DNA of 64,000 bases from Oscillatoria salina IIICB1 (GTDB lineage: Bacteria > Cyanobacteriota > Cyanobacteriia > Cyanobacteriales > SIO1D9), in the NCBI RefSeq assembly GCF_020144665.1, contig NZ_JAAHBQ010000001.1:1-64000 (forward strand), in the 5' to 3' direction. Within the stretch, counting starts at the first letter, position 1. Each line of letters begins with the position of its first letter. Of the stretch, positions 1,211-51,663 are shown one piece after another. Below the pieces are notes generated by a model. It saw only the letters and a list, made by a program, of their open reading frames with translations. It did not search any database and was not told where the DNA came from. Both the position numbers and the translations under genes were made by a program.

Positions 1211-2179
1211 TTACCTCTTAACTACTGACTTAATTTTTCCCTTCATCCGGTGAAAGTTCTTTTTAAACTTTTTTTGGATTTTGGGAATCATTTTTTTCTT
1301 CAATCTCGGCAATTCTTGCTCGATGAAATAGCGGGAAAAGTAAACTCTCAGCCAGTTTTTCTCTGGTAATTTAAAAGTTGTCGAATTTAAACGCTCAATT
1401 TGTTCTTTAGACAATGCTAATTCTGGTGGAGTAAAATTTAGATCCAAACAAATCGCTGTTTCCGGTAAAGCAAAAGGATTGTCAATTCCTAATTCAATTT
1501 GCTTCAATAAAGACGGACGCACTAAACCTGCTGCAACATCTTGCTGAATATCTTCAACATCTAAATAACCCTTTTCTATTGCTGAAAAGAGACTCATAGA
1601 CCATTCTTTACCAAAGGGAGCAAAACAAGAATACCACGGTCGCGAATTTAAAGCTAGGCAATCAATTACTTTTGCTTCTGGGTTTTCCCCATAAGCAAAA
1701 ATTGACCATTCTGGAGGCAAAATTTCAATTTTTAACTTGGCAAAATCGGCTAGCTTACTATAATTTAGCTCACTTTTTTGTCTGAGTTGTTTGGTTAATT
1801 TCTGTCTTTCCTTAGCAGTGTAGTTAACTACAAAAAAGTCTAAATAAGCGAAAACTTTTTCTTGAGTTGCTTGCAAGCAAGTTTGGCTCTCGTGCTGAAA
1901 AATTTCCTCAATGTTACCATAGATAAATAAATTACCATCAAGGTAAAGAGTTTTCTCGGCTGCCAATTGATTTGTTATTAACCACAATTTCGCAGCCAAT
2001 GGTAAGGCTACTTCTGGTTTAACTTCCCAACGATGAGGAATTGACAAATTTAGCTGAGAAGCAAAGCAAATCTCTAAATTGCCACTACAATTGCTGATGA
2101 GATGATAATTGAGCAGTTTTTTTGGGGTTTTACCGAGTCCGATGTCATTGACAAATACGCAATTTTGTGGTAAAGACAC
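1211..2179 (-). CDS. GT8-like protein with degenerate DxD motif
   Basis: A 322-residue protein related to the two GT8-like proteins at 2188-2910 and 8073-8996. It keeps the core pattern hydrophobic-YLD followed by a hydrophobic strand, but the metal-binding DxD is DGN at residues 81-83. It also shares the motif G-x-x-RPSLL-x-x-I (about 222-231) with the 8073-8996 protein. The C-terminus (about 285-322) is strongly basic and may contact membrane or polyanionic glycan. The start is GTG at 2179, with AGG 7 nt upstream; that AGG overlaps the stop codon of the preceding gene (gap 8 bp), which suggests translational coupling. It is the last gene of a four-gene run read from 5.8 kb. The altered DxD may mean changed metal use or loss of catalysis. 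Assignment rests on similarity to its neighbours, not on a full catalytic motif. Confidence 0.6.
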   Translation of the reverse strand: MSLPQNCVFVNDIGLGKTPKKLLNYHLISNCSGNLEICFASQLNLSIPHRWEVKPEVALPLAAKLWLITNQLAAEKTLYLDGNLFIYGNIEEIFQHESQTCLQATQEKVFAYLDFFVVNYTAKERQKLTKQLRQKSELNYSKLADFAKLKIEILPPEWSIFAYGENPEAKVIDCLALNSRPWYSCFAPFGKEWSMSLFSAIEKGYLDVEDIQQDVAAGLVRPSLLKQIELGIDNPFALPETAICLDLNFTPPELALSKEQIERLNSTTFKLPEKNWLRVYFSRYFIEQELPRLKKKMIPKIQKKFKKNFHRMKGKIKSVVKR

Positions 2180-2187
2180 TTTTCAAC

Positions 2188-2910
2188 CTACCAGATAAGA
2201 TAGCGGAGATAGTAGCGATTGATATCTTTTTCCGCGATCGCCTGCCATAATTCTCTACGTTTAAGATAACCCGCCCGGATTGTTTTTCTCAACCATTGAC
2301 CCCAAAATTTACTCAGAGGATGATCTGGTTTTTTCCAAGGTTGAGAAGCGACGTGACTAAAATGCAATAATTTCGTATCTTCTCGCAAAATATTAAAATG
2401 ATTCCAAGTAGGTTCGAGTTCCTGAATTTCGCGATCGTCCATCCACTTTAACCACATAAAATCGCGATAATGAATTTGTCCCGGTTCGAGAGGAGAATCA
2501 TTAGGAACCACATTATTAAAAATCGTCTCTGGATTCCAATGTTTTAGTTGAGCACAATTCATCACCATCACGCTAGTTTCTTTGCGCTGGGGAACTGGTT
2601 TACCACCAAAATAACCTTCTAAATTACTTACTAAAGCCAAGGTGTATTCTGGCTTTAAGCTATTAGCTAATTCTTGAATATCAGTCAGCACAATTTGGTC
2701 GGCATCTAAATAAATTGCCGTTCCTTCATAATTAAAAATACTCGGAACCAAAAATCTCACAAAACCAAATCTAGTTCCACCAACACGCTTTTGAGTTTGC
2801 GTCACGAAGCGAATATCCACCTCGGCTGAAGTGTGACTGCGAATGGAATATTCGAGAACTTTTTGGGCAACGTACTGATTTTTTTCCGTACCAATAACGA
2901 TTCTAATCAT
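2188..2910 (-). CDS. GT8-like glycosyltransferase (short form)
   Basis: A compact 240-residue GT-A enzyme. The N-terminus has the nucleotide-sugar strand IRIVIGTEKNQY; AIYLDADQIV at residues 66-75 carries the DxD (D69, D71). Then comes a middle region with a conserved MVMNC motif, and HFSH near the C-terminus supplies the usual second metal-binding histidine. The layout is that of glycogenin/LgtC-like GT8 enzymes, which move a sugar from a nucleotide donor with retention. The start codon overlaps the stop of the upstream gene as ATGA (2907-2910). It is a clear paralogue of the 8073-8996 product but lacks that protein's long basic tail. Donor and acceptor cannot be read from the sequence. Confidence 0.75.
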   Translation of the reverse strand: MIRIVIGTEKNQYVAQKVLEYSIRSHTSAEVDIRFVTQTQKRVGGTRFGFVRFLVPSIFNYEGTAIYLDADQIVLTDIQELANSLKPEYTLALVSNLEGYFGGKPVPQRKETSVMVMNCAQLKHWNPETIFNNVVPNDSPLEPGQIHYRDFMWLKWMDDREIQELEPTWNHFNILREDTKLLHFSHVASQPWKKPDHPLSKFWGQWLRKTIRAGYLKRRELWQAIAEKDINRYYLRYLIW

Positions 2911-3626
2911 ACATTTTTCAGCTTTTTAATGTCTTTAACCAACGAATCAGTCGAAATTTCGCCTTTCAACACTTCGTGCTGATAGTCAATCATATGATAA
3001 CCGACAATCGGCGAAAGATTAATCACATTAACGCCTTTTGTTTGCAAAAATTTTTGCACTATTAAGGTTCCATAGACATAAGCATCGTAGTTTCTCTCCC
3101 TCGCTACCACACCAAAATCATTTTTATCATAATTCGCGTAATGATTTCCGCCAATTGTCCGACTATCGCAACCCAACACAAAAATATTTTTTGCTCCCAT
3201 AATCCAACAAACTTGTAATGCTGGATGGAGAGAACAACCTTGAGGACTGTAGTATAAATAATCCGTATCTTTCGTCAAATTCCACAAATCTTGAATTTTT
3301 TGGGTGCGATCGAAACAGTAGAAATAAGGATGATCCCATTCGATCTTTTCGATTTTATAGCGACTTGCTGGTTTGAGAATCGGATATTTAATATTCTTAA
3401 AATTTTCGTGGTAAGGTGCAGTTACTTTTTTTCCAGCATGAGCGTAAAGCTGATGATTCATCAACACGATTGGCGCGATCGCCGGATGAATCTTATAAGC
3501 ATCATTCAGCCCTAGACAAATTTTATCTCTCAGAAACTCCATCGGAAACAAATTTGCCGTCGGTCCCGAACCCACTATATAAATATCTTGATTTAAATAA
3601 ATATCTCTTAACTCTCGCAGTCTCAT
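2907..3626 (-). CDS. DUF115/sialyltransferase-like glycan protein
   Basis: A 239-residue soluble protein with a Rossmann-like start: IYIVGSGPTANLF at about 15-27, then CLGLNDAYK at 37-45. A second block, NIFVLGCDS..GGNHY, lies near 146-163. The I-V-G-x-GP-S/T pattern followed by a 'true location/name' strand is the hallmark of DUF115/MAF-type and GT42 (Cst-I-like) sialyltransferase-related proteins, where it binds CMP-sugar or similar donors. Exact membership is uncertain. AGG sits 8 nt before the ATG, the upstream gene ends 10 bp away, and the downstream gene overlaps by 4 bp, so it belongs to the same transcript as the surrounding glycosyltransferases. A sugar-transfer role is inferred from motif and context. 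Confidence 0.55.
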   Translation of the reverse strand: MRLRELRDIYLNQDIYIVGSGPTANLFPMEFLRDKICLGLNDAYKIHPAIAPIVLMNHQLYAHAGKKVTAPYHENFKNIKYPILKPASRYKIEKIEWDHPYFYCFDRTQKIQDLWNLTKDTDYLYYSPQGCSLHPALQVCWIMGAKNIFVLGCDSRTIGGNHYANYDKNDFGVVARERNYDAYVYGTLIVQKFLQTKGVNVINLSPIVGYHMIDYQHEVLKGEISTDSLVKDIKKLKNV

Positions 3627-3636
3627 TTTTGCTACC

Positions 3637-5799
3637 TTATTTATCTACCAAACCCAAACCCTTTTTCAAACTTACCCATTTTTCGCGAACTTTCCAGAAT
3701 TTAGAAGCTTGCATCAGTTTAATTTCTGAGCGTAATTTCTTTTTCTCTTTTTGTAAAGTCCGTTTATCCTGTTGCAACTTTTCAATTTTGCTTTTGAGGC
3801 TAACTCGGTTGGTTTGCAAGTCATCGATTTTACCTTTGAGCTTAATTCTGTCAGCTTGCAAGTCTTCAAGTTTATTCTTAAAGTTAATAAATTCTGCTTG
3901 GAGAGCGGCTATTTTGTTTTTTAAGTTAGTTCGATCTGCTTTTAATTCTTCATTTTTATCCTTAACTTCCCTTAACTTAATTTTCAATTCCTGGTTTCTA
4001 TTTTTAAGACTTAATTTATCTGTTTTTAAATCTTTAACTTCTTGAACAATGTTTTTAAGTTCTTCTTGAAGTCCTTGAATTTTTTCCTGAAAAAAGCCAG
4101 AATTCTTGGCAAACAATTTTTGAACTTCGAGAGAAAAATTTTCCCAGCTTAAGTGAATGACAGTATCGCGAATATTCGTTTCAATTTGATAAGCTTGCTC
4201 GATCAGATCGCAAACTTCTTCAACCGAACTATCAATATTAAAGAGAAAACCATTTTCTCCATGAGTAATTATATTAGGTGCAAATCCTGTTTTGCTAGCT
4301 ACGGGAACAATATTACACATCATTGCCTCGATTAAAGGAATTGGACCTCCTTCAAGTTTGGCAGGCGAAACAAAGACGTCCATTTGAGCATAATATTGAG
4401 GATAATCTGAATAAGGAGCCTCAACATATTCAAAGTTAGGTAAATCCCTCAATTCGGAAAATTTCTCGTATTTCTCCCAGTTTCTTCCTAACAAAATAAA
4501 TTGACGATGTGGCATTGCTTTAACAACACATAAAATAAGATCGGGATTTTTACGAGGATAATAAGCCGTACAAAAACCTACCGAGCCAGCTTCTCTTTGA
4601 TGGGGTTGAAATAAATTTGGATCTGCACCGCCTAAAATAGAAGTAACTTTATGCTTTTCAACGCCATTATCTATCAAAAATTTGACATTTTGTGGGCTAG
4701 CACAGATGGTTGTTGTGCAATTATTTAAAGCTTGCACGACTCGCTCTTCTAAACGAGCGGTATTTTTGGGATGAGTGTACCAAGTTAAAAGCTGACTGTA
4801 GCGAATGTAAGGATACTCTTTCAAGCATTTTCCTACTAAGGAGTAGTGGGCTAAATAATAAACTTCTGCCAAAGGAATGTCTTCGGTGGGATAGTAGACA
4901 AAACGCCAATTTCCCTCGATAAATTTGGCGATTTCTTGACAAATACCATCCAAAATCCAACCACGATTTACTTCAGGAACAACAAATACTACATCGTAGG
5001 GTTTTTCGGCTTCAAAATTCCAACGACATTCTTTGGTAATATTTGCACTACCTTGAAGATATCCTCTCGTATAACCTTTCTCCCCAAATAATAAAGGATC
5101 TAAGGTCGAACCAATATCTAAATAAGTGTTTTCCTGAGAATGCAAAAATAATTGATGAGTTAAAATATTGCCTAACGGACCACAACAAAATAAAAAAAGA
5201 TGATTTTTGATTTCATTTTCGTCGATATAATTTTTAATTTCTGTAATTAAATTACGGTTTTCTTTCCAAGCATTCAATCCGCAGCGAAAATCTTTTTTTA
5301 CGGAAAAAGGTAGTTTTTCTAGATTGGCTTGCTGATTGCAAACTAAGATGACTTCATACTCTTGATACAGGGGAACAATACTAGTTAAATAATAACTATA
5401 ATTACTATTAACAAATATATTTGCCCAAGTTAAATAACTTTCGTCTCTATTGACAAATTCTCTCATCCAGCGAGCATCGTCTTCTCCGACGCAACAGGGA
5501 CAAGCAACACCTAGAAAATATTGTTCGCGATCGCAACGCAATGCGGCTGATAATGCTGCTCTTAATTCCTCGTCTTCTGGGTTTTCTGGCTCGTAGATAA
5601 ACTCACCATTACCGATATGCAATCTATTAATATGTCTACCCGCCACGATTGCCAGTTCCCCATCTGCGGCTTTATTAAAAGCAAAATGTTCTTTTCGCTT
5701 TAGTTTCTCGCGCAAAACTTCTAAGTCGCGCCGAAAATACTTATTGGGAAAAGTGCCAAATTTAAAGGACTGGTTCTCTTGGTGGCTCTGCATACTCAT
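3637..5799 (-). CDS. Multidomain glycosyltransferase: GT-D-like + GT4 + coiled coil
   Basis: About 720 residues in three parts. Residues 15-260 resemble the DUF1792/GT-D fold: NKAADGELA near 43 in place of the usual R-x-GDGE, and YLDIGSTLDPLL near 230. Residues 265-550 are a GT4 (GT-B fold) unit with ILGGADPNLF, GFCTAYYPRKNPD and the donor-site block SPAKLEGGPIPLIEAMMCN. Residues 560-695 are a long Lys/Glu/Leu heptad coiled coil, ending in SKFWKVREKW. The same coiled-coil-plus-SKFW-x-x-R-x-KW tail ends the 1006-residue protein at 9019-12039. A TTG at 5805 and ATGs at 5799 and 5793 are possible starts; no clear ribosome-binding site separates them, and ATG 5799 was chosen. It is the first gene of the minus-strand run. 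Two glycosyltransferase folds in one chain suggest successive sugar additions (inference). Confidence 0.75.
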   Translation of the reverse strand: MSMQSHQENQSFKFGTFPNKYFRRDLEVLREKLKRKEHFAFNKAADGELAIVAGRHINRLHIGNGEFIYEPENPEDEELRAALSAALRCDREQYFLGVACPCCVGEDDARWMREFVNRDESYLTWANIFVNSNYSYYLTSIVPLYQEYEVILVCNQQANLEKLPFSVKKDFRCGLNAWKENRNLITEIKNYIDENEIKNHLFLFCCGPLGNILTHQLFLHSQENTYLDIGSTLDPLLFGEKGYTRGYLQGSANITKECRWNFEAEKPYDVVFVVPEVNRGWILDGICQEIAKFIEGNWRFVYYPTEDIPLAEVYYLAHYSLVGKCLKEYPYIRYSQLLTWYTHPKNTARLEERVVQALNNCTTTICASPQNVKFLIDNGVEKHKVTSILGGADPNLFQPHQREAGSVGFCTAYYPRKNPDLILCVVKAMPHRQFILLGRNWEKYEKFSELRDLPNFEYVEAPYSDYPQYYAQMDVFVSPAKLEGGPIPLIEAMMCNIVPVASKTGFAPNIITHGENGFLFNIDSSVEEVCDLIEQAYQIETNIRDTVIHLSWENFSLEVQKLFAKNSGFFQEKIQGLQEELKNIVQEVKDLKTDKLSLKNRNQELKIKLREVKDKNEELKADRTNLKNKIAALQAEFINFKNKLEDLQADRIKLKGKIDDLQTNRVSLKSKIEKLQQDKRTLQKEKKKLRSEIKLMQASKFWKVREKWVSLKKGLGLVDK

Positions 5800-5840
5800 T
5801 GGCAAGAAGACAGTTTTTATTAAGGATAAGATACCACAAA

Positions 5841-5870
5841 TTGTTGAAAAAGAACAAACTTAATGATAAA
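5841..5870 (+). promoter_or_regulatory. Possible promoter for the plus-strand GT8 gene
   Basis: The 108-bp gap between divergent genes contains TTGTTG (5841-5846) and GATAAA (5865-5870), 18 bp apart, 37 bp upstream of the plus-strand start. The spacing is right, but neither hexamer is perfect and the region is A/T-rich. Confidence 0.35.
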
Positions 5871-5907
5871 ATTATGAAAGTTTGGGCAAATTAGAGAGCC
5901 AAATAAA

Positions 5908-6900
5908 ATGTTAGCAAATACTAGTCAATTGATAAAAAAGGTGCTAAAAAAGTTCCCAAAGCTTGCCCAAAAGTTGCCGGAACAAATCGCAACTCAGCTA
6001 TTCAAACCACAAGAGAATCCTAGCATTGTTTGTGCTGCTGACGATCGCTACGCTATGCCTTTGACTGTAGCAGTTCGCTCGGTGCTTGCCAACCTAAAAA
6101 TTTATCCCCAGGTAAAGCTATTTCTGATTGATGGCGGCATCAGTCCAAAAAACAAGGAAAAATTTCTCCAGTCTCTCAACCCTAAACAAATCGATCTTCA
6201 CTGGTTGCAACCAGATCGAAGTAAGCTAACTAAAATGAAGGTTAAAGGTCATGTGAGTCTGGCAAGTTATTATCGCTTACTAATTCCTGAGTTACTACCT
6301 GATTCCCTTCAAAAAGTAATTTACCTGGATAGTGACTTGGTTGTCAATGCGGATATCGGCAAACTCTGGAATATTGATGTGGGAGATTATTATCTTTTAG
6401 CAGTTCAAGATTTGGGCGTTCCTTATGTGGGTTGTCCGGTGGGACTTTTGAATTATCAAGAATTAGGATATCCGGCGGATTATAAATATTTTAATGCGGG
6501 TGTATTAGTAATTAATTTGCAAAAGTGGCGACAAGAAAGTATTGGCAAAAAAGTTATTAATTATATTGAAGAAAATCTAGAATTTATTCGTTGGTGGGAT
6601 CAAGATGGCTTAAATGCGATGTTAGCAGGTAAGTGGGGAGAACTTGATTATAAATGGAACCAACAACCGCCCATTTATGGCTACGGCGAACCTTCTTGGA
6701 AACCTAGTCCTCTGAAAAAAGAACTTTCTGAGGAAGTTTGTCAAGATATTATTGATAATCCTTATATCGTGCATTACGTGACTTCGCGCAAACCGTGGCG
6801 TTATGATTCTTTACATCCTCGACGAGACTTATTTTTTCACTATTTAGATATGACTGCTTGGGCGGGATGGCGACCGGAAAAACCTGCTAACAACAAATAA
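5908..6900 (+). CDS. GT8 family glycosyltransferase (LgtC-like)
   Basis: A 330-residue GT8 enzyme of normal length. The donor-binding strand IVCAADDRYAMPL is at 40-52, the DxD motif in VIYLDSDLVV at 137-146 (D141, D143), the substrate loop YFNAGVLVINL near 193-203, DQDGLNA near 231-237, and the C-terminal metal-site histidine in YIVHYV near 286. Known LgtC-like enzymes transfer galactose or glucose from UDP-sugars with retention of configuration. The first 35 residues are basic and amphipathic, suggesting attachment to the inner face of the membrane. It is the only plus-strand gene between two minus-strand glycosyltransferase runs and ends 5 bp from the convergent GT4 gene. Family is certain; sugar specificity is unknown. 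Confidence 0.9.
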   Translation: MLANTSQLIKKVLKKFPKLAQKLPEQIATQLFKPQENPSIVCAADDRYAMPLTVAVRSVLANLKIYPQVKLFLIDGGISPKNKEKFLQSLNPKQIDLHWLQPDRSKLTKMKVKGHVSLASYYRLLIPELLPDSLQKVIYLDSDLVVNADIGKLWNIDVGDYYLLAVQDLGVPYVGCPVGLLNYQELGYPADYKYFNAGVLVINLQKWRQESIGKKVINYIEENLEFIRWWDQDGLNAMLAGKWGELDYKWNQQPPIYGYGEPSWKPSPLKKELSEEVCQDIIDNPYIVHYVTSRKPWRYDSLHPRRDLFFHYLDMTAWAGWRPEKPANNK

Positions 6901-6905
6901 AACAG

Positions 6906-8060
6906 TTAATTTTTGTCGCGTAATGACTCGATAATTTGTAAGTGTTGTTCTGCCAAAAATTCTAATTTAAACTTGGTAGAGCAAGTTTGTTTTGCGCCAG
7001 CAATTAATTCATTTCTTAACTCTGGTTTATGAAGCAAAAGAGTAATTTTTTCATACCATTCATCTTGGTTTGCTAGTAAACCATTTTCTGAGTTAATTGT
7101 TTGATTGTAAACGTTTAAATTGCGGGCAATAATAGGGATTTCCGCAGCAGTATATTCTAAATATTTGCTCAAAGATTTACAGCGATTAAATTCTGTATCT
7201 TCGATTGGCGCTAATCCTACATCCCAATTAAGTTGGTAAAGCTGTTGCAGAAATTTGTCGAATTGTTTGATAACTTTGTGGGATTTTATTCTGTCACCAA
7301 AACAAGTTAATTCTTCCGGGAGAGAAACTGTACCAAAGATTTCAAACTTTGCTTGAGGATAGTCAGTCAAAACTTGCGCGATCGCAGGTGCGATCGCGCG
7401 CAAATCCTGATTATGTCCTTTCGATCCCATGTAACCAAATTTAAACTCGGAATCGGCTTTTTTCTCCTTCGCAGGTTTTTTATTGACTAAATGCCCTAAA
7501 TATGGTGGATAAACACCATCAAATATTTGCTGTTGAGGAAAAACTTTCGCGAGTTTCTTAGCTAAATATTCAGTTGATGAATAAATTAAATCAACATTTT
7601 CGAGTAAATGTTTTCTTTCAGTAATTACCTCTGGATTTCCTAACCGCTTTTGAATTTCTTCCCCAAGAACTGGGGTAATATTTAAGAGATCGTCGTCAAT
7701 GAAATAAATTGTCGGAATCTGCTTCTGTTGACATTCTGCCAGCAAAAAGCGACCGTAAGCCAAGCCGTAACGGTTAAAAATTACTGCATCTGGTTGTTCT
7801 GATTGTAACAACTGCTGCCAAAACAAATCTGGATTTTTTTTGTTGATTTTGTCAAGTATATCTTGATGACAAAGTGCCGTAAAATCAGCAACTTTTTTCG
7901 CTGCTAAACTTCGCAAAGGATAATAAAATCCGGTGTAGTAAGTGGCATTAAAGTAATCAGTAAGTACCAAGATTTTTAATTTCTTTTCCTGGTTTACTGT
8001 TAACTCTTGATTGGGACTAAAAAATTGTTTTACTTGCTTTAAAAAAGGCTGGAAAATCAT
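6906..8060 (-). CDS. Glycosyltransferase, GT4/GT1-like
   Basis: A 384-residue GT-B-fold protein. After a basic N-terminal stretch, residues 28-35 (LKILVLTD) begin the first Rossmann half. The second half has FKFGYMGSKGHNQDL near 207-221, the donor-proximal block GLAPIEDTEFNRCKSLSKYLEYTAAEIPII near 285-315 and a short C-terminal helix. The Glu-rich donor site is looser than in typical GT4 enzymes (E-x7-E is not obvious). The gene is 12 bp downstream of the GT8-like gene at 8073 and is the last of a four-gene minus-strand run beginning with the sialidase-like gene. Substrates cannot be predicted. Confidence 0.75.
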   Translation of the reverse strand: MIFQPFLKQVKQFFSPNQELTVNQEKKLKILVLTDYFNATYYTGFYYPLRSLAAKKVADFTALCHQDILDKINKKNPDLFWQQLLQSEQPDAVIFNRYGLAYGRFLLAECQQKQIPTIYFIDDDLLNITPVLGEEIQKRLGNPEVITERKHLLENVDLIYSSTEYLAKKLAKVFPQQQIFDGVYPPYLGHLVNKKPAKEKKADSEFKFGYMGSKGHNQDLRAIAPAIAQVLTDYPQAKFEIFGTVSLPEELTCFGDRIKSHKVIKQFDKFLQQLYQLNWDVGLAPIEDTEFNRCKSLSKYLEYTAAEIPIIARNLNVYNQTINSENGLLANQDEWYEKITLLLHKPELRNELIAGAKQTCSTKFKLEFLAEQHLQIIESLRDKN

Positions 8061-8072
8061 TATTTAACGAAA

Positions 8073-8996
8073 TTATTTGGTTACTTTTTCTTGTTTTTGC
8101 AAAGCTTCTTCGTATGCTTGAATTGCTTGCTTGCGTTTCTTTTTCGCTTTATAAACTTCTTTGTGAGGCTTATATTCTTTGCCTTTGTCTAAAGATTCGT
8201 GCCAATTTGCTAAAAATGGCTGGAAAATTTGGGGGACAAATTTAGTATATTTAATCTCTCGCAATAAAGATGGTCGAAAATATCCCAACTTAATTTCTTT
8301 TTCAATTTCTTTCATGGTTAGGGAACCATTTTTCAGCATCAGTCTGACTTCATTAAACCAGAGATAGCCATACTTGTTCCGAGAAGATACCCACGGTTGA
8401 GTAGCCATATCAGTATAGTGAATTAAACAGGTTTTTTTGTCGTAATATTCTAAACTATTCCACTCAAAAGGAACGCCATATTTGATATCTTTTTGGTCAT
8501 CTAAGATACATAACTCATACATGAGTTTTTCGTAATTGTATTTGTTAGTATCAAAACCATCAATAATCTGCTCAATTTTCCAGTCAAGACGATCGCAGTC
8601 TAAGAGCATCACCGAACATTGTTTCACTCTTTGGGGTGGTGCGCCATGTTTAGCGATCTGCTGGCGATCGCGGGGAATTTCTTCTTGAATAATCACTTTT
8701 GCACCGTCGAAAGGAATGTCCCAAAGCGAAGCAATATCCTTGAAAACTAACATATCCGCATCCAAATAAAGCGCTTTCCCGGAATATCCCGCTAATTCAG
8801 GAATGCAAAAGCGACTAAAGGAAAATCCTGTCCTTTGTCCCTGACGCGGATCTTTAGGTTTCGGGATTGGTAAATCGAGCATGGGATAAACTTCTACATC
8901 CCGCTTAGTATGTCGTTTAATTGAATGTTCTAGGACTTTAACTGCTAGTAATTGCGACCTATCTGTCCCGACATAAACCCGAATTCTTTCACTCAT
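8073..8996 (-). CDS. GT8-like glycosyltransferase (long form)
   Basis: A 307-residue paralogue of the 2188-2910 enzyme. IRVYVGTDRSQ starts the GT-A fold (residues 5-15), ALYLDADMLV at 75-84 gives DxD (D79, D81), VMLLDCDRLDW follows near 130, and LIHYTDMATQPW near 200 supplies the distal histidine. The tail (about 240-307) carries G-x-x-RPSLL-x-x-I, shared with the degenerate paralogue at 1211-2179, then a very basic Lys-rich end. A strong ribosome-binding site (GAGGAG, within gtgaggagtcagattt before ATG) fixes the start. It lies 22 bp downstream of the 1006-residue glycosyltransferase. Probably cytoplasmic and perhaps membrane-associated through the basic tail (inference). Confidence 0.75.
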   Translation of the reverse strand: MSERIRVYVGTDRSQLLAVKVLEHSIKRHTKRDVEVYPMLDLPIPKPKDPRQGQRTGFSFSRFCIPELAGYSGKALYLDADMLVFKDIASLWDIPFDGAKVIIQEEIPRDRQQIAKHGAPPQRVKQCSVMLLDCDRLDWKIEQIIDGFDTNKYNYEKLMYELCILDDQKDIKYGVPFEWNSLEYYDKKTCLIHYTDMATQPWVSSRNKYGYLWFNEVRLMLKNGSLTMKEIEKEIKLGYFRPSLLREIKYTKFVPQIFQPFLANWHESLDKGKEYKPHKEVYKAKKKRKQAIQAYEEALQKQEKVTK

Positions 8997-9018
8997 AAAT
9001 CTGACTCCTCACAATAAT

Positions 9019-12000
9019 TTATTCTGATTCCTTAGCTAGTTTAAGCAGCTTTTTCAGCCTAAACCATTTGGCTCTAAGCTGCCAAAACTTAGAAGTTTTC
9101 ATTGCGGCAATTTCTTCTGCTAATTTTTTATTCTCCTGTTTTAATTTTTTCAATTCTGATTTTACTTCTTTTTGCTGTAGCTTAACATTTTTTGCCTTGA
9201 TTTCTGTTTCTAAATTTCTCTTGTAAGTTTCATCTCGTTCGAGTTGAAACAAACTGTCAGCGCTGGGTTGAAGGAAACGCTGACGTAAGATAATTGTTTG
9301 GAGAAATTCATCGCAACGTCCTCTCGAAGTTCCCGATAAGTGTTGAACTTGGAGATGTCCGAGATAAATATTAGTGTAACCTGCTGCGCGCGATCGCGCA
9401 TTAAATTCTACATCATTAAAGCCGTTGGGAAACTCTTTTTCATTTAGCCCAGCCAATTCCTCATATCGATTTTTGGCTATAGCAACACAAGCAAAGCTGT
9501 TTCCATAGGTTTCGCGAATTAGTCTAGCGTATTTGCGATCGCGACATTCTTCCACTAAACTTAACTTTTGAGAAGTTGTCGCTTTTTTAGCTTTCAAACC
9601 AGCAATTATTTGCTTACCATCGGGACTAATAATTTGACAACCTACGGTAGTTACACTAGCAACTAAAGCCCAAGCTGCCATTTCTGATAAGGCTGATTCG
9701 CTCAATATTTCCGCATCATTATTCAAAAAGAAAAGAACTTCTCCGCTAGCTACTTTTGCACCTAAATTACACTGACGGCTGTGGTTAAAAGGAAAGTCAT
9801 AATCGATGATTTTGACGTTAATTTTGCTTTGCTGTTCCTCAAGATAACTTTTAATTTGTGCGAGACTGTTTTGCGTTGATTGATTATTAATTAAAATTAT
9901 CTCCAGACTTTCCGAAACTTGCTGTTTAAACAAAGAAGCTAGGCAACGAATAGTATAATCTGGTTTATCGCGAAAAGGAATAATTACACTAATACTTTCA
10001 GCCTGACGACGGGGTTTGAGTTGGTAAGGTTGTTGTTCATCAGCTTGCAAGACAAACTCAAATTCGTTTTCAAGAGAACTAAATATTTTTCGATAAGTAT
10101 CCAGATAGGGAGTTACTAACTTTTGCAAACTTTCGGGTCGATTTTTTCCTGCTCTCAAACTACAATATTCCGGATGTGTTTGCCATTGCAACCCAACTTG
10201 ATTTCCTAGCCAAAGCTGAAACAAATGTCCGTCATTTTTAACTAAACAATCAAATAAATCGTCGGGATAATTAGCTGCCAAATTCGGTTTGACAGCAAAA
10301 CCAGTTCCGATGTAATTTATATGTCTTAAAGTATGTAATTCTAACTGCGGACGGCGAAGAAATTCTTTAACTGTTAATTCATCTATTTCACTTCCTGCTA
10401 ACTGCTGTAAATTCCAAACGACTACATCGGGATTAGAGTCGAAACTGAATAATTTTAATGTGGTGGCTAAGGTAGGAGCAAGTAGATCTCCGGGACGAGA
10501 AAATAGGACAAAATCGCTTTTATCTGCGAGTTGAAGCCAGTCATTGTGGTTATCTTTCCAGACTTGAATTTTCCCAGAAAAATCTTGTTTTGCTAACCAA
10601 GTAGTTAAAGATTCTGTCGAGTTATTTCCCAGAGGAATTAACCAACAATCCACTAAAGGACAACTTTGCAATTGCCAAGATTTTAAAGTTACTCCTAATT
10701 CTGCTGAAGGAGTTTCCTCAACTAGCAACAACAAAGAGATATTTTTGGCTTTTTCTTCGTCAGTAAGCGCATCTCCAAGAAACAAACCTCGCTCGGTACT
10801 CAAGCGTTTAAAATATTCTTCAGGTTTAAGATTGCGGTATTGGTATTCTAAAGGTAGACTTGCTAAGAAGAGAATTTCGGCTTTGCTGGGATAAGATAAT
10901 TGATTGATTGTTGTGAAATCTGTGCTTTCTTGAGCAATTTCGGCGGCGATTAAATCAAGAATGCGTTGAATTGCATCGCCAGAAATTAGGTTTCTTTCAA
11001 CAAAGGCTTGGGCTTGATTGCGAGCAGTAATAATTTTCTGGGAATTTTGAATTTGATTGACAAAACTAAACCAATCTTTGGTTGATTTAATTCTCATCAA
11101 AGGAGCATAGTTTTCTAACTCTAAATCGTAACTTACTACGCTCACCGGACAACCAGCGCGGGCGGCATCAACTGCTACAGTTGAAGGGGTAGTAATTGCT
11201 GCATCAACATATTTAATTAAAGCCGCAGCCGTGTAAGCTTCCCATTGAGGAAGTTTGGGGTCAGCAATGATGATATTATCTGCGTTAGGTAAATTACCTT
11301 TGTAGCGATGGGTAAGCCACATTCCCGCGTGATGGGGTTTAACTAAAAATGTGGTATTGGGAAAGCGACGGGCTGTGGTTTCTAAGTCTGCTAAAAAAGA
11401 TTGGCGATAATCTTCACTATAGCGATGCCAGTGGAGATTTTCAAAGATAGCGATCGCGTAATCTCTTTTTCCTGGTATCTTAATTTCAGGTGTAACTGGA
11501 CTAATTTCTTTGGGACAACCGACAGGAATACAACGAGAAATTGTTTCTGGTAAGGCTTCGGGAGCGAGTAAACTTACATCCCCCCAAAGTAAGATTTTTG
11601 ACGAAGCAAACTGAATTGATTCGGGCGTTTCCCTCTCGTCAAAATAAGTTAAACCGATATTTTCAAAGCCATGTTGTAAAGTGTAAGTGTGGATTCCGGC
11701 GGCATTAGCTCGCTTGGTAAGTAAATGAGCGGCTTTGTGCGGTCCAGCCGTACTTTCGGCAGCAGTTATTAATACTTGAACGTCGTGTAATTGCGGTTGA
11801 ATTCCCAGTTTAACTCCACGACGGAAAGGGACGCTATATTCTATCCCTAATTCACGTAAAGTATTTTCTACTCGCGGCGATTTACTGACCAACCAATCAG
11901 TTACACAGACTTTAAATGACAAGTCTTCTCGATTTTTTGCTGCTAATAAAAAAGGTCTAATCAAATCTAAATCTTGAATTAGATCCATAAATAGCAACAC

Positions 12001-12039
12001 GGTTGGTTTACCGTTACTCAAGCTTGTCCGACTCCTCAC
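9019..12039 (-). CDS. Multidomain glycan synthase: polymer-synthase-like + GT2 + coiled coil
   Basis: 1006 residues. The N-terminal 360 residues look like the GT-B-like family that includes CDP-glycerol glycerophosphotransferases and capsule/UDP-GlcNAc-epimerase-like proteins (TLQHGFENIGLTYF near 128-141; FLVKPHHAGMW near 230-240; TTPSTVAVDAARAGCPV near 281-297). A linker region of about 300 residues has no clear motif. Residues 680-900 are a GT2 domain: ISVIIPFRDKPDYT, ILINNQST, NHSRQCNLGAKVASGEVLFFLNNDAE (NDA as DxD). A coiled coil and the tail SKFWQLRAKW end the protein, as in the 3637-5799 product. Start is GTG 12039 (GAGG 4 nt upstream) or TTG 12021 (AGGAG 10 nt upstream). Likely a bifunctional enzyme making or extending a repeating surface glycan (inference). 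Confidence 0.75.
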   Translation of the reverse strand: MRSRTSLSNGKPTVLLFMDLIQDLDLIRPFLLAAKNREDLSFKVCVTDWLVSKSPRVENTLRELGIEYSVPFRRGVKLGIQPQLHDVQVLITAAESTAGPHKAAHLLTKRANAAGIHTYTLQHGFENIGLTYFDERETPESIQFASSKILLWGDVSLLAPEALPETISRCIPVGCPKEISPVTPEIKIPGKRDYAIAIFENLHWHRYSEDYRQSFLADLETTARRFPNTTFLVKPHHAGMWLTHRYKGNLPNADNIIIADPKLPQWEAYTAAALIKYVDAAITTPSTVAVDAARAGCPVSVVSYDLELENYAPLMRIKSTKDWFSFVNQIQNSQKIITARNQAQAFVERNLISGDAIQRILDLIAAEIAQESTDFTTINQLSYPSKAEILFLASLPLEYQYRNLKPEEYFKRLSTERGLFLGDALTDEEKAKNISLLLLVEETPSAELGVTLKSWQLQSCPLVDCWLIPLGNNSTESLTTWLAKQDFSGKIQVWKDNHNDWLQLADKSDFVLFSRPGDLLAPTLATTLKLFSFDSNPDVVVWNLQQLAGSEIDELTVKEFLRRPQLELHTLRHINYIGTGFAVKPNLAANYPDDLFDCLVKNDGHLFQLWLGNQVGLQWQTHPEYCSLRAGKNRPESLQKLVTPYLDTYRKIFSSLENEFEFVLQADEQQPYQLKPRRQAESISVIIPFRDKPDYTIRCLASLFKQQVSESLEIILINNQSTQNSLAQIKSYLEEQQSKINVKIIDYDFPFNHSRQCNLGAKVASGEVLFFLNNDAEILSESALSEMAAWALVASVTTVGCQIISPDGKQIIAGLKAKKATTSQKLSLVEECRDRKYARLIRETYGNSFACVAIAKNRYEELAGLNEKEFPNGFNDVEFNARSRAAGYTNIYLGHLQVQHLSGTSRGRCDEFLQTIILRQRFLQPSADSLFQLERDETYKRNLETEIKAKNVKLQQKEVKSELKKLKQENKKLAEEIAAMKTSKFWQLRAKWFRLKKLLKLAKESE

Positions 12040-12120
12040 TTCACCTCAAACTCAGAATTTTATAGCATATCTTATTCATACCAGCAATAGCTATCACCCC
12101 TTCATAGAGACTTAGCAATG

Positions 12121-13095
12121 CTACTTCTCTACTTCATAGGAAAATTCCCAAAATTGAATTTGTTGCCGTTTCCAAGTGTAAGTTAGTGCGAAGCCGAATT
12201 CGGTTTTAATTACCGCCGGATAAGAATATTCTCCTAGCTTATCTTCCAAAACGAATATATCTGACCAAGTTTGTCCGTTATCTTGAGAAAGGGCAATTTT
12301 TAAAGGAGTCCTCGCACCCCAATTTTTCTCGACGGGATTGTAAATTAAAATCAAGCTACCGTCGTCTAATTTCGCTAAATCGATGCCGCTATTATTGTTC
12401 GGAAGTTCGGTAGGATAGGCTTTGCACCAAGTGTAACCGTTGTCAAGGGAATCGGCACGATAAATTTTTCCGGCGGTACTACGGGCGAAAAGATGGACAT
12501 GACCGGGGCTAGATTCCCATAATGTCGGTTGGATGATACCCAAACCAGCGAAATTTTGCCGATTCCGTGGTATAAAAGCACTAGGTTGCCAAGTTTTTCC
12601 CCCATCGGTGGAGCGATCGACAAAACAATCCCAAGCAGTTTGAGTTTCTACGGAAGCTGGAGCCAGCCAATCGCCATTTTCTAGTTTAATCGGTTTATTC
12701 TTCACTGGACCCCCAGCGATCGCTTGGTCAACTAATGCTTGAGGTGAACTCCATTGGTGACTCTCGAAACTACGACGACTCACATAACTTCGCCATTCTC
12801 TGGGAGAGGGACCGACTTTCCAGAAAAGGTAAATCTGCTCGTGATTTTGGCATAAAACCGGATTCCAGTGCGGTTCGTCAGTAACTTTGGCATTTTTCAC
12901 CGGGGAAGACCAATTTTCGCCAGATTTCTCACTCAACCAAATTGCCGTATCGTCATTACCTTCCTTACTTCCCGCAAACCAAGCACAAAGATAGCTATTG
13001 TTCGGCAATCTGAGTAACGTAGAAGCATGACACTCTGTGGTTTCTACTGTTTCCGCAAGGAATACTGGTTCATTAGTCAAGGGTTTGACAAACAT
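12121..13095 (-). CDS. Sialidase-fold (BNR/Asp-box) protein
   Basis: 324 residues with three exact Asp boxes, S-x-D-x-G-x-x-W, at 162-169 (STDGGKTW), 216-223 (SLDNGYTW) and 270-277 (SQDNGQTW), plus a weaker early box near 55-62. An arginine-containing strand (ARTPLKIAL, near 261-269) and a late tyrosine (LTYTW, near 308-312) are in the right order for exo-alpha-sialidase-like catalysis, but a complete Arg triad cannot be confirmed by eye. The length and the absence of accessory domains fit the 'BNR_2' group found in bacteria and plants. There is no signal peptide, so it appears cytoplasmic, unlike scavenging sialidases. It heads the minus-strand run and is divergent from the oxygenase gene. 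It might trim or recycle a nonulosonic-acid-like sugar (inference). Confidence 0.75.
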   Translation of the reverse strand: MFVKPLTNEPVFLAETVETTECHASTLLRLPNNSYLCAWFAGSKEGNDDTAIWLSEKSGENWSSPVKNAKVTDEPHWNPVLCQNHEQIYLFWKVGPSPREWRSYVSRRSFESHQWSSPQALVDQAIAGGPVKNKPIKLENGDWLAPASVETQTAWDCFVDRSTDGGKTWQPSAFIPRNRQNFAGLGIIQPTLWESSPGHVHLFARSTAGKIYRADSLDNGYTWCKAYPTELPNNNSGIDLAKLDDGSLILIYNPVEKNWGARTPLKIALSQDNGQTWSDIFVLEDKLGEYSYPAVIKTEFGFALTYTWKRQQIQFWEFSYEVEK

Positions 13096-13194
13096 AAATT
13101 TGCGCTGTATTTTGATTGGGCAGCGATCGCTCGTGCGTCCAGTTTAACTAATTTTTCATCTGGAACTTGCGATCGCGACTATTTGTCAAGAATG

Positions 13195-13227
13195 TATAAT
13201 TCTTGCTGCTGTGGGTATTGTGAGGAG
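13195..13227 (+). promoter_or_regulatory. Promoter -10 box and ribosome-binding site of the StrG-like gene
   Basis: A perfect TATAAT sits at 13195-13200, and GAGGAG (13222-13227) lies 6 nt before the ATG at 13234. No good -35 box is present at 16-18 bp, so this may be activator-dependent. The Shine-Dalgarno sequence decides the start: reading in the same frame from further upstream would run antisense into the sialidase-like gene. Confidence 0.5.
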
Positions 13228-13233
13228 TGTTGC

Positions 13234-13947
13234 ATGATGTTAGAAGTCAAAAATCAAATAATTATCAACAATTATGACACTGAAAATTTTCCTTTCTTAA
13301 AGATCTTTTCTCAGCATTGTTTAGAAACCTTTGGCTGTGCAGAAATAGAAAGACTTCATGAATTTATTCCCGATAGTCTCCAACCCCAGCGAGTTTTAAA
13401 AGTAGGAGAAGACCAAGCTACCTATGCTCACAGCCTACTTTATCAAATCGATCCTGCTTATCAAAAAAAAATTGCCAAACCAAAGCCAGTTAAAGACCGA
13501 GGTTTAATCCAAACTTATCAAAAGTTTATCAGCTTTTTAGAAGCAGAAATTTTTGGTTATAAGTTAGTATATCAAAAATTACCAACTTTAAGAATTCACT
13601 TACCTAATAACTTAAGTGTTGGCGAATATCACCGCGATCGCGACTATAACCATCCTGCGGAAGAAATTAATGTTTGGGTTCCCCTTACTAAAGCTCAAAA
13701 AACTGCTACTATTCAGATGGAAAGTTCCTACGATACAGGGGATTTTCATCCTGTGGAAGCTGACTATGGTCAATATGCGATCTTTGATTCAGCGTTGATG
13801 CACGGAAATGAAGTTAATATAGAAGGATATACGCGAGTTAGTTTTGATTTTCGAGTTATTCCTTTCTCTAAATATCAGGCTTGCGAACGTTCGTCAATTA
13901 ATCAAAAAATGAAATTTTGCGTTGGGGACTATTATAGTATTAACTAG
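13234..13947 (+). CDS. StrG-like 2-oxoglutarate/Fe(II) oxygenase
   Basis: A 237-residue cytoplasmic protein. The iron-binding triad is visible: H133-R-D135 in GEYHRDRDYNHP and H190 in ALMHGNEVN, with R201 in TRVSFDFRV as the 2-oxoglutarate-binding arginine. The block EINVWVPLT near 144-152 and the ending RVSFDFRV are typical of the streptomycin-biosynthesis StrG family and of hydroxylases acting on sugars or small molecules. The open frame extends upstream to 13027, but that part is antisense to the sialidase-like gene and Cys-rich; GAGGAG 6 nt before 13234 fixes the true start. It opens a three-gene plus-strand run (gaps 47 and 17 bp) with a glycosyltransferase and a second oxygenase. Its probable substrate is a sugar nucleotide or glycan (inference). 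Confidence 0.8.
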   Translation: MMLEVKNQIIINNYDTENFPFLKIFSQHCLETFGCAEIERLHEFIPDSLQPQRVLKVGEDQATYAHSLLYQIDPAYQKKIAKPKPVKDRGLIQTYQKFISFLEAEIFGYKLVYQKLPTLRIHLPNNLSVGEYHRDRDYNHPAEEINVWVPLTKAQKTATIQMESSYDTGDFHPVEADYGQYAIFDSALMHGNEVNIEGYTRVSFDFRVIPFSKYQACERSSINQKMKFCVGDYYSIN

Positions 13948-13994
13948 CGAGCTAACTAAACTACCACAAACAATTCAACAAAAGCTAATTATTT

Positions 13995-15032
13995 ATGAAG
14001 CCTTTAATTGCTTGGAAACCATTCGACCCCAAATTGAATGCAGCAAGTACGAGACTGCGAGTGCTCCTACCTTGTCAATATTTACAAGAAGCGGGATGGA
14101 ATTGTGAGATTTATAAGCCAGAAAAAGCCGATGAATATGATTTAGTAATCTTTCAAAAAACTTGTACCAAAGAAGATATTACTTTGGCAAAAAACTTGCG
14201 AAAAAAAAAGATTAAAGTTGTTTACGATTTATGCGATAATAACTTTTATAATCCCTACGATTTGCGGAAATATTCTCAAAAAGCTGCTGGCTCGAAAAGC
14301 ATGATCGAACGAGCAAATGCAGTGACAGTTTCTACGCCAGAATTGCAAAAATTAATCGCTCATCCTCAATGTATTGTGATTGACGATACGATTGATTATG
14401 TCCAGCGAAATTGGTTAAAAGAAATTCCTTACAAATTGAAAAAATGGCAGGAGAAATGGCAAGATAAATCTTTTCGGGTAGTGTGGTTTGGGAACTCGAA
14501 ACTAGAGATAGTTTATAAAAGTCTTGGATTATCCGAAGCGCCTTCAGGAATGGCAAGTATTACTAAAGTAACGCCCGCTTTAGAGGAGTTAAATAAAAGA
14601 ATACCCGTTAAATTGACTGTCATTAGTAATTCAGAAGAACTTTTTCAGGAACATACCCAAAATTTGAGCTTTCCCACTAAATATTATCCCTGGCAAATGT
14701 CAACTTTTCCTTTATTATTCTTCCAAAATGATGTTTGTATTATTCCTATAGATCTAAATCCTTTTACGATTTGCAAAACTAATAATCGCTTAGTTACTTC
14801 TTTGTCTTTAGGTTTACCTGTAGTAGCAGATAAAATTCCTAGCTACGAAGAATTTAAGGATTTTGTTTTATTTGGCGACTGGGAAAAGAATCTTTATCGC
14901 TACGCAACGAATAAAAAATTGCGCGATCGCCACGTTAAAGAAGGTAAAGAATATATTAAAAATAATTATACCAAAAAACGGGTAGTAGAACAATGGTCTA
15001 AAATGTTTAAGACAGTTTTAAAACTGAAATAG
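13995..15032 (+). CDS. Glycosyltransferase, GT4-like
   Basis: A 345-residue GT-B-type protein. The N-terminal half starts LIAWKPFDPKLNAASTRLRV; the Ala-Ser-x-Arg-x-Arg pattern is typical of GT4 enzymes that bind acceptor near the N-terminus. VVYDLCDNNFYN lies near 75-86. The donor half contains RVVWFGNS near 161-168 and an Ile/Pro-rich loop with NNRLVTSLSLGLPVVA near 269-284, which replaces the common E-x7-E block. It lies between two oxygenase genes and was probably co-transcribed with them. Sugar and acceptor are unknown. Confidence 0.75.
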   Translation: MKPLIAWKPFDPKLNAASTRLRVLLPCQYLQEAGWNCEIYKPEKADEYDLVIFQKTCTKEDITLAKNLRKKKIKVVYDLCDNNFYNPYDLRKYSQKAAGSKSMIERANAVTVSTPELQKLIAHPQCIVIDDTIDYVQRNWLKEIPYKLKKWQEKWQDKSFRVVWFGNSKLEIVYKSLGLSEAPSGMASITKVTPALEELNKRIPVKLTVISNSEELFQEHTQNLSFPTKYYPWQMSTFPLLFFQNDVCIIPIDLNPFTICKTNNRLVTSLSLGLPVVADKIPSYEEFKDFVLFGDWEKNLYRYATNKKLRDRHVKEGKEYIKNNYTKKRVVEQWSKMFKTVLKLK

Positions 15033-15049
15033 TGGAGGAGTGAAAAATT

Positions 15050-15925
15050 ATGCGATCGCTACTTGCGAAAGTAACTAAAGATGACGTTTTTACCGAACCG
15101 TTTCCGCACATAATTATTAAAGATCCCTTGGATGAAGACTTGTGCAAACAACTGTTTGAAGAATTTCCCACGCTCGACCAAGTGACGGAAGGAAAAAAAT
15201 ATGCCAGTAACGAAAGATTTAGTTACTCGGCAGCGAAGGTATTAAAGGATACAAGGATTAGTCCTCTCTGGAGAGAATTTGTTGCTACCCATGTATCTCA
15301 AAGTTTCTTGACAGAATTTATTGAATTATTTAAAGATGAAATTCGTCAAGTTTACCCGGATTTTGAAAAAGAATTTGGCAAACTGGAAACTTTGACAGCA
15401 GGTACGAGAAAAAAAGATTCCTTTGAGACAGTAGACGTACTGTTAGACGGACAAATTTGCGTGAATACTCCAGTGGTAGAAAAACCCTCATCAGTGCGAG
15501 GACCTCATGTAGATAGCTCGAATAAATTGTTTGCTGGTTTGTACTATCTGCGCGATCCTGAAGATCCTTCTACGGGAGGTGACTTAGAGATATATAAATT
15601 TAAGACCAAAGATTACCAATTTGAAGGTCAATTTATCAGTGACGAGTACGTGGAAACAATCAAGACAGTAAAATACGAGCGCAATGTTTTGGTGTTATTT
15701 GTGAACTCGATCGACTCGTTACATGGAGTAACAGTTAGAGAAACTACTGACTGCCCGCGTTACTTTTTTAACTTGTTAGGGGAAGTGAAAAAAAATTTGT
15801 TTAGCTTTACTCCAGAAGAAGATAAGCACAAACAACAAGTGCGAGAAAAGCAATTTAAAATCCCAATTCCGGCTTCATTAAAAGCATTAAAGAGAAAGCT
15901 GAGTGTGAGAGTTACCAAGGGCTAA
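15050..15925 (+). CDS. 2-oxoglutarate/Fe(II) oxygenase, prolyl-hydroxylase-like
   Basis: 291 residues. The metal site is H153-x-D155 (GPHVDSSNKLFAGLYYL) with the distal H225 in DSLHGVTVRE, followed by R237 in CPRYFFNLLG as the likely 2-oxoglutarate ligand. GGDLEIYKF between them is the characteristic strand of the prolyl 4-hydroxylase/Rps23-hydroxylase-like superfamily. The C-terminus is basic. GGAGG (15033-15037, just after the upstream stop) lies 12 nt before the ATG. It differs clearly from the StrG-like enzyme in the same run, so the pathway probably needs two separate hydroxylations. In glycan clusters such enzymes modify sugars, lipids or peptides; which applies here is unknown. Confidence 0.8.
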   Translation: MRSLLAKVTKDDVFTEPFPHIIIKDPLDEDLCKQLFEEFPTLDQVTEGKKYASNERFSYSAAKVLKDTRISPLWREFVATHVSQSFLTEFIELFKDEIRQVYPDFEKEFGKLETLTAGTRKKDSFETVDVLLDGQICVNTPVVEKPSSVRGPHVDSSNKLFAGLYYLRDPEDPSTGGDLEIYKFKTKDYQFEGQFISDEYVETIKTVKYERNVLVLFVNSIDSLHGVTVRETTDCPRYFFNLLGEVKKNLFSFTPEEDKHKQQVREKQFKIPIPASLKALKRKLSVRVTKG

Positions 15926-47568: not shown

Positions 47569-47603
47569 TTTAATTAGCTAAAATAAACAATTTTTGTAGG
47601 AGA

Positions 47604-48779: not shown

Positions 48780-48792
48780 GACTATTTCGTGG

Positions 48793-49800: not shown

Positions 49801-49902
49801 AACGAGATTAAATGTAGATTATCTAAATTTCTACTGACAAAAAATAACCTAATAACCGAGCAATTGCTGAACTTTAATTTCTGCTCCTAATTTATTTTAC
49901 TC

Positions 49903-51573: not shown

Positions 51574-51639
51574 AGAAGCTTGTTTAAGCTGTCCTTCCTC
51601 TCGATTGTGGCACAAGAATTGTTAAGCTTTTGGAAAAAT

Positions 51640-51663
51640 GGGGCAACCACGGGGGGTTGCCCC
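51640..51663 (-). terminator. Rho-independent terminator of glmM
   Basis: On the minus strand, GGGGCAACC and GGTTGCCCC (9-bp perfect stem, 6-nt loop) are followed by ATTTTTCC, starting 8 bp after the glmM stop. A similar hairpin lies at 61121-61145. Confidence 0.75.

Follow-up and report, generated by a model that had tools for sequence, protein, structure and literature searches.

A contig-terminal glycan island of Oscillatoria salina IIICB1 is probably the left part of a locus for a Kdo-bearing surface polysaccharide

Which sugar does a dense cluster of glycan genes at the start of a cyanobacterial contig handle, and what becomes of the product? The cluster occupies positions 1211-15925 of the first 64,000 nucleotides of contig 1 of Oscillatoria salina IIICB1 (NZ_JAAHBQ010000001.1, forward strand; the whole stretch is referred to as the window), in a draft genome of 5.96 Mb, 163 contigs and 99.99% completeness. 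The original prediction, made from the letters alone, had placed here a sialidase fold, two oxygenases, a DUF115-like protein and eight glycosyltransferases (GTs), all of which we find, and had proposed that this unusual mix makes a modified, possibly nonulosonic-acid-like or hydroxylated glycan. Judging from the gene neighbourhood in this genome and its relatives, the stretch very likely belongs to a locus for 3-deoxy-D-manno-oct-2-ulosonic acid (Kdo), and the island is probably the left-hand portion of a single locus responsible for synthesis, decoration and export of a Kdo-bearing surface polysaccharide.

The evidence starts immediately left of the island, where kdsD lies at 67-1077. KdsD scores 288.0 bits against the TIGR00393 cut-off of 203.7 and 307.2 of the 505 bits required by the equivalog NF008141, so that the choice between KdsD and GutQ is not settled by score. 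The contig ends 66 bases further on, inside a C-rich repeat. The genome's kdsA (411.8 bits, cut-off 314) is found on contig C126 (7368 bases), 89 bases from the contig end, and is followed there by KdsC (TIGR01670, 173.5 bits, cut-off 106.95; equivalog NF007019, 175 of 208), a GT8, an ATP-binding cassette (ABC)-2 permease, an ABC ATPase and a GT2. Both kdsD and kdsA are thus located at a contig end. An early reading of the genome as one without activated ulosonic acids was dropped on account of the contig end beside kdsD and the kdsA on C126. An ulosonic-type modified glycan is plausible, but the linked pathway is that of Kdo, an octulosonic acid, and not a nonulosonic one: kdsD stands beside the island, kdsA and kdsC are on C126, and there is no NeuB. 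The features of the island and its left flank are as follows.

1-66, no strand: C-rich repeat at the contig end, unit about 40 bases (read directly; a single match to the search pattern in the window)
67-1077, minus: kdsD, arabinose-5-phosphate isomerase of the KpsF/GutQ family, first step towards cytidine 5'-monophosphate (CMP)-Kdo (TIGR00393)
1211-2179, minus: GT8-like protein with a degenerate D-G-N motif, locus-specific (no Pfam match; 41% identical relative at the equivalent place in genome G014)
2188-2910, minus: GT8, D-A-D motif (PF01501, 25.4 bits, cut-off 24.3; 64% relative at the equivalent place in G014)
2907-3626, minus: DUF115/MptE-like candidate transferase (70% relative in G014; label from a G018 relative against PF01973)
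3637-5805, minus: GT4 with an unassigned N-terminal region, a long coiled coil at about residues 572-710 and a SKFWxxRxxWxxLKK tail (Pfam, sequence)
5908-6900, plus: GT8, D-S-D motif (PF01501, 166.2 bits)
6906-8060, minus: GT4-type, conserved framework (Kdo loci of G014, G179 and G392 have relatives at 44-49%)
8073-8996, minus: GT8, conserved framework (PF01501, 39.6 bits; 69-71% relatives in G014, G179 and G392)
9019-12039, minus: two-module protein of 1006 amino acids, GT-B-type N-terminal half, GT2 C-terminal half (61.0 bits), C-terminal coiled coil and tail
12121-13095, minus: sialidase-fold (BNR_2) protein (Pfam, AlphaFold model)
13237-13947, plus: 2-oxoglutarate (2OG)-Fe(II) oxygenase 1, distantly like TIGR04324 (53.7 bits; H132-x-D134, H189)
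13995-15032, plus: GT4-like, conserved framework (Kdo loci of G014, G179 and G018 have relatives at 32-47%)
15050-15925, plus: 2OG-Fe(II) oxygenase 2, prolyl-4-hydroxylase-like family (neighbour of kdsD in other genomes)

The island reads as a minus run (1211-5805), a single plus gene (5908-6900), a second minus run (6906-13095) and a plus run (13237-15925), with within-run spacings of -4 to 133 bases when kdsD is counted in. Pfam cut-offs are passed by five of the eight GTs (those at 2188, 3637, 5908, 8073 and 9019); the GT at 6906 falls just short (25.1 versus 26.4 bits) and that at 13995 is marginal.

Strong kdsD genes occur in eight of 100 relatives, our genome included, while kdsD matches of any kind, mostly via CBS domains only, occur in 64; G043, with two copies at 33-35%, was left out of the locus comparison. 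KdsA exceeds its cut-off in 209 of 386 genomes of the phylum, mainly in one family of approximately 2-Mb genomes outside the class and one small-genome family inside it; within the order it was counted by hand in six of the 104 genomes listed, 18 genomes with no match being absent from the list. We compared 14 Kdo loci: those of the eight strong-kdsD genomes and of G041, G127, G179, G273, G347 and G392, six members of the order and class picked by hand from the top of the KdsA list, with many KdsA genomes of family f47 left out. Among the 14, kdsB was unseen in G000 and G041.

Three of these genomes share a framework with the window. Relatives of the GT at 13995, the N-terminal half of the 9019 protein, the GT8 at 8073 and the GT4 at 6906 are followed, after other genes, by kdsD, kdsB, kdsA, kdsC, a GT8 and a GT2 in G014, G179 and G392, where the kdsC of G014 lies at the border of the compared stretch, the G392 stretch stops short of the position of the 13995 relative, and the GT2 match of G179 is weak (24%). 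G014, from another family of the same order, has the fullest run: relatives of 13995, the N-half (59%), 8073 (69%) and 6906 (44%), then other genes with an ABC pair of their own, then relatives of 2907, 2188 and 1211, and finally kdsD (74%), kdsB, kdsA and relatives of the C126 GT8 (60%) and GT2 (57%). G179 and G392, from a third family, have the same framework without 2907, 2188 and 1211. Both sides of the assembly gap, the window and C126, fit this one gene order, and because the three genomes hold genes of both sides in one run, contig 1 very probably adjoins C126. In the seven other relatives with a strong kdsD, kdsB is never more than 3.5 kb away (7/7; the G014 KdsB scores 202.1 bits, cut-off 155.2), and we infer from this synteny that kdsB sits in the gap. 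The G014 locus (L024, 7412-14497) also contains a membrane-bound O-acyltransferase (MBOAT) and methyltransferases among the framework genes; these have relatives in G179 and G392, and acylation and methylation of this class of glycan are therefore likely on gene content.

Which enzyme would transfer Kdo? Our best candidate, put forward tentatively, is the GT-B-type N-half of the 9019 protein (residues 1-370, window 10930-12039), which stands alone, unfused, in G014, G179 and G392 at 59-62% identity. The N-half occurs in three of the 386 phylum genomes, all with KdsA above the cut-off; with our own genome set aside this is two of two (hypergeometric probability 0.002, kinship uncorrected). One of three GT-B types, related or analogous, is carried by 12 of the 14 Kdo loci. 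The N-half type is found in G000, G014, G179 and G392. A polysialyltransferase-like type lies beside kdsC in G016, G018, G066 and G084, with PF07388 (POLYST, 52.0 bits, cut-off 23.3) matched in the two of these four that were scanned, and G004, G127, G273 and G347 have a third type with weak CDP-glycerol-transferase or Capsule_synth matches (three of the four scanned), of which G127 additionally holds a distant relative of the polysialyltransferase-like type. The stretches read for G083 and G041 showed none of the three types. The Capsule_synth match (PF05159) in the Kdo locus of G347 reaches 26.2 bits against a cut-off of 20, and profile alignment of the N-half with this third, CDP-glycerol/capsule-type group gave a probability score of 86.5 and an E-value of 4.6e-6 over 280 columns. 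According to the available text of PMC4594306, Capsule_synth includes the known Kdo transferases KpsC and KpsS, and it is because of this profile kinship that the N-half ranks first.

The proteins encoded at 3637-5805 and 9019-12039 both end in a coiled coil and a shared SKFW..R..W..LKK tail, which no other frame has among the 396 compared across the loci; the tail is perhaps a membrane or complex anchor. Coiled coils set chain length in other ABC-dependent systems (PMC11231755, accessible portion), and that of the 3637 protein is a possible chain-length ruler. Along part of its length, the 1211 protein is similar to GT8 genes from other Kdo loci (24-30%), with D-G-N replacing D-x-D. For the DUF115-like protein at 2907 there was no Pfam match, PF01973 (cut-off 34.6 bits) included, and a profile search of the PDB returned nothing useful; its 29% identical relative in G018 reaches 31.7 of those 34.6 bits. 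The DUF115 label, like the TIGR04324 label of oxygenase 1, rests on sub-threshold scores.

Is the polysaccharide likely to be modified? Both oxygenases keep the H-x-D...H...R motif for metal and co-substrate, and oxygenase 2 lies just below the cut-off for 2OG-FeII_Oxy_3 (26.3 versus 27 bits). Single-sequence PDB searches with either protein yielded nothing useful, and an oxygenase 2 profile found the putative hydroxylase 9blq (E-value 0.0016) and the prolyl-4-hydroxylase-domain protein 9ei6 (0.004). Clear relatives of oxygenase 2 elsewhere among the 100 genomes are confined to G066 (55%), G084 (54%) and a broken copy in G016, and all three lie beside kdsD (hypergeometric probability 0.0002, uncorrected for kinship, with all three genomes from one family). 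A fifth, weak match is in G074, a genome without a strong kdsD. The broken copy (L040, G016:C17, approximately 6009-6161) has an internal stop, which suggests that the decoration is being lost in G016. Because oxygenase 2 adjoins kdsD in three other genomes, a hydroxylation of the type that converts Kdo to D-glycero-D-talo-oct-2-ulosonic acid (Ko) suggests itself. KdoO shows that a 2OG oxygenase can act on Kdo (PMC8533242, available text), and by this analogy oxygenase 2 may act on an ulosonic acid, an assignment that we regard as possible yet doubtful.

The Kdo loci of G018 and G347 contain a second 2OG type, 1.6 and 5.3 kb from kdsD respectively, and H153, D155, H225 and R237 are invariant in five Kdo-locus oxygenases (the G016 fragment excluded), a motif found throughout the superfamily. 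With 2OG oxygenases in at least six of the 14 loci, the mix of genes is less unusual than the original prediction had it, while its hydroxylated glycan stays plausible. Oxygenase 1, which probably starts at ATG 13237 and not at 13027, is marginal in Pfam (14.7 of 27 bits) and reaches 53.7 of the 150 bits of TIGR04324 (E-value 2e-14). It is found in three of the 100 relatives, ours included, and the other two lack a strong kdsD.

The sialidase-fold protein is harder to place. Its fold is clear: BNR_2 is matched with 231.5 bits (cut-off 31.4), and the AlphaFold model (predicted local distance difference test score 81.6) superposes on the Micromonospora sialidase 2ber with a Z-score of 35.1 and a root-mean-square deviation of 2.1 over 300 residues. 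The top chains in Foldseek and VIA-align are nearly all of the sialidase fold, families outside the lists not being excluded by this. In GH33 the catalytic-site residues have assigned roles, among them the Arg-Ile-Pro (RIP) arginine, which binds the carboxylate. By comparison with a canonical planctomycete sequence, the window protein has H23 (in C-H-A-S) in place of this arginine and keeps D49, R262 and Y292. Its sequence starts directly with the domain and has no signal peptide, whereas its Bacteroidota relatives have, by eye, a lipobox or leader. Kdo hydrolase activity is listed for GH33 in the accessible part of PMC9120202; from that listing and the proximity of the genes, it is improbable, though conceivable by analogy, that this protein acts on Kdo.

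The strongest alternative concerns this gene pair: the sialidase-fold protein and oxygenase 1 may be unrelated cargo that came from Bacteroidota or another source and plays no part in the glycan, which we take to be a serious possibility, somewhat short of even. The framework genes on either side of the pair are direct neighbours in G014 and G179, and the sialidase gene has a G+C content of 0.443 against 0.34-0.38 in the neighbouring GT genes. Its nearest relatives are in a Flammeovirgaceae metagenome-assembled genome (51%), where the gene adjoins SusC/SusD-like genes (by eye), and in Larkinella (40%), both Bacteroidota. No relative was found in the other genomes of the 100-relative set. Of 388 genomes of the class, ten match, our own included, and nine do so distantly; six of them form one genus at approximately 26% identity, and within the 20 kb read around the gene none of these six has kds genes. 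That genus (L071-L076, genomes of 2.3-2.6 Mb) encodes sialidase-fold proteins of approximately 500 amino acids, with a GT4-like gene about 8 kb away in five of six. Against the cargo explanation, both genes are intact and lie within the run in head-to-head orientation with 141 bases between them, which suggests that they have been kept for use. We read the sialidase-fold gene as a late, lineage-specific insertion into the framework, and oxygenase 1 as likewise a recent addition, from their distribution and position. The conserved linkage expected for the gene set thus extends to the GT framework and in part to oxygenase 2, but not to the sialidase or oxygenase 1.

For the Kdo-bearing polysaccharide that we favour, the steps would run as follows. 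KdsD would supply arabinose-5-phosphate, KdsA and KdsC would make Kdo from it, and KdsB, encoded in the gap, would activate it to CMP-Kdo. The GT-B N-half of the 9019-12039 protein would transfer Kdo, and the GT8, GT4 and GT2 enzymes would build the remaining chain in the cytoplasm, from where the ABC transporter would export it. Oxygenase 2 could hydroxylate the ulosonic acid or a neighbouring sugar, in the way that KdoO converts Kdo to Ko, and the sialidase-fold protein, lacking a signal peptide, could cleave an ulosonic or related linkage in the cytoplasm or have an unrelated role. Taken jointly, the boldest version, an exported polysaccharide whose Kdo is oxidised (Ko-like or otherwise) by a cytoplasmic 2OG oxygenase whose family has no sequence relationship to KdoO, transferred by a new GT-B family and, before export, edited in the cytoplasm by a sialidase-fold ulosonidase that has histidine for the RIP arginine, is a long shot.

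Several results weigh against the Kdo polysaccharide. A PF02348 profile search over all 163 contigs gave no kdsB match, and the 89 bases ahead of kdsA on C126 contain no clear kdsB tail. The Wzm/Wzt-type pair on C126 does adjoin the Kdo genes, as in an ABC-dependent polysaccharide locus, with scores below equivalog cut-offs (best NCBIfam models: galactan Wzm, with 43.1 of the required 380 bits, and Wzt, with 191.5 of 400). Its Wzt, at 265 amino acids, is without the C-terminal extension of its 417-429-residue relatives, and its permease is only 22-24% identical to the framework relatives; because of this short Wzt and low identity, the C126 exporter is, on sequence grounds, not the framework's own. 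The N-half has no Pfam match, its profile matches no solved structure in the PDB and does not match the POLYST type, and a single-sequence AlphaFold model of it was discarded (predicted local distance difference test score 40). The Kdo-hydroxylase family (Kdo_hydroxy, PF11004) is absent from the Pfam-A matches of both oxygenases up to an E-value of 10, a range in which HMMER filters hide most weak matches. Finally, the sialidase-fold protein was found in none of the other 13 Kdo loci, within the compared stretches.

In a second alternative, the Kdo and GT genes simply co-reside in a variable region, CMP-Kdo serves a lipopolysaccharide (LPS) core or another glycan, and the product of the island is a neutral chain of O-antigen-like type that contains no Kdo. 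Cyanobacterial GT islands are highly variable, and the C126 exporter pair is not orthologous to that of G014. In addition, the available text of Pereira et al. 2015 (PMC4594306) argues that a poly-Kdo linker may be missing in cyanobacterial extracellular polymeric substances (EPS). Co-residence nevertheless has to account for kdsD, kdsB, kdsA and kdsC being interleaved with the same GTs in four genomes of three families, ours included, and for the restriction of the N-half to KdsA genomes, and we consider it fairly unlikely.

The remaining two alternatives are weaker still. Downstream, at 20345-46357 on the plus strand, the window contains a frame of 8670 amino acids with bacterial Ig-like, F5/8 type C, laminin-G-like, C-type lectin and cadherin-like domains and a C-terminal DUF4114, which by its domains is a giant adhesin-like surface protein. 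An island with several GT8 and GT4 genes close to such a protein could be a protein-glycosylation island that decorates it. This is very unlikely, since G014, G179 and G392 have the framework without any frame above 1000 amino acids in the stretches read, a UbiA-family gene and others separate the island from the giant gene, and the ABC pair beside the Kdo genes favours an exported polysaccharide. A nonulosonic acid glycan (sialic, legionaminic or pseudaminic type) trimmed by the sialidase would suit the sialidase fold and the DUF115-like protein, whose family is tied to nonulosonic acid and flagellin glycosylation, but is hardly credible here, as the genome's sole NeuB-family match (PF03102, 36.1 bits, cut-off 22.1) turned out to be a 3-deoxy-D-arabino-heptulosonate 7-phosphate synthase (712.9 bits versus 486), the assembly has no PF02348 CMP-sugar synthetase, and the sialidase-fold protein is missing the RIP arginine.

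How does the proposed Kdo locus compare with known systems? Like the group 2 capsule loci (KpsF, U, C, S, M, T), and like Synechocystis slr2107-slr2122 with KpsM, T, F and U, whose cyanobacterial distribution is confined according to the accessible text of Pereira et al. 2015 (PMC4594306), it sets CMP-Kdo genes beside an ABC transporter and GTs. It differs from group 2 capsules in its GT8/GT4 framework, 2OG oxygenases and sialidase-fold protein; PF05159 (Capsule_synth, KpsC/KpsS) is not matched among the scanned window proteins, and no KpsE or KpsD was recognised in the stretches read. The 9019 protein, a putative GT-B module with a second GT and a coiled coil, resembles WbbB, KrkA and Klebsiella O4 ORF7, in which a Kdo transferase is combined with further GT modules or with a coiled coil (PMC12887879 and PMC11231755, in their available text), but its N-half is without a sequence match to a solved structure and the C126 Wzt is without the terminator-reading C-terminal extension. 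Oxygenase 2 is like KdoO, the Fe(II)/2OG Kdo-3-hydroxylase of Burkholderia and Yersinia, in being a 2OG-Fe(II) enzyme tied to Kdo with an intact motif, although the window oxygenases match no Kdo-hydroxylase family. With GH33 sialidases the window protein shares the propeller fold, BNR_2 repeats, aspartate, R262 and tyrosine, and differs in the histidine for the RIP arginine and the lack of a signal peptide. Oxygenase 1 is distantly like the TIGR04324 2OG oxygenase of the "sporadic carbohydrate cluster", below that model's cut-off, and our search of the open-access literature turned up no paper naming this cluster. The same search, which covered few subscription journals, met no description of the present gene combination.

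Kdo genes in cyanobacteria are already published and are not new here: KpsF and KpsU are listed in Synechocystis by Pereira et al. (PMC4594306, available text), and CMP-Kdo in Chroococcidiopsis is discussed in the accessible part of a 2026 paper (PMC13308351). Reviews, in the portions available, describe cyanobacterial LPS as without Kdo, with some older colorimetric reports disagreeing (PMC4515613, PMC4390846), and Kdo transfer in cyanobacterial EPS is left open in the accessible text of Pereira et al. (PMC4594306). Sets of kdsD, kdsB, kdsA and kdsC nonetheless lie inside GT/ABC loci of several cyanobacterial families, and comparing these loci yields short lists of candidate Kdo transferases and ulosonate-modifying oxygenases that are individually testable.

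An Rfam scan of the window gave no match, and viral scans with three of the proteins found no relatives. The octamer GCGATCGC occurs 66 times in the window against 0.5 expected, an excess typical for cyanobacteria. On the minus strand at 46366-53135, three GTs, a 570-residue protein without a Pfam match and a phosphoglucomutase/phosphomannomutase possibly form a second sugar cluster, and three consecutive serine/threonine kinase genes, one with a YARHG domain, follow on the same strand at 53398-58438.

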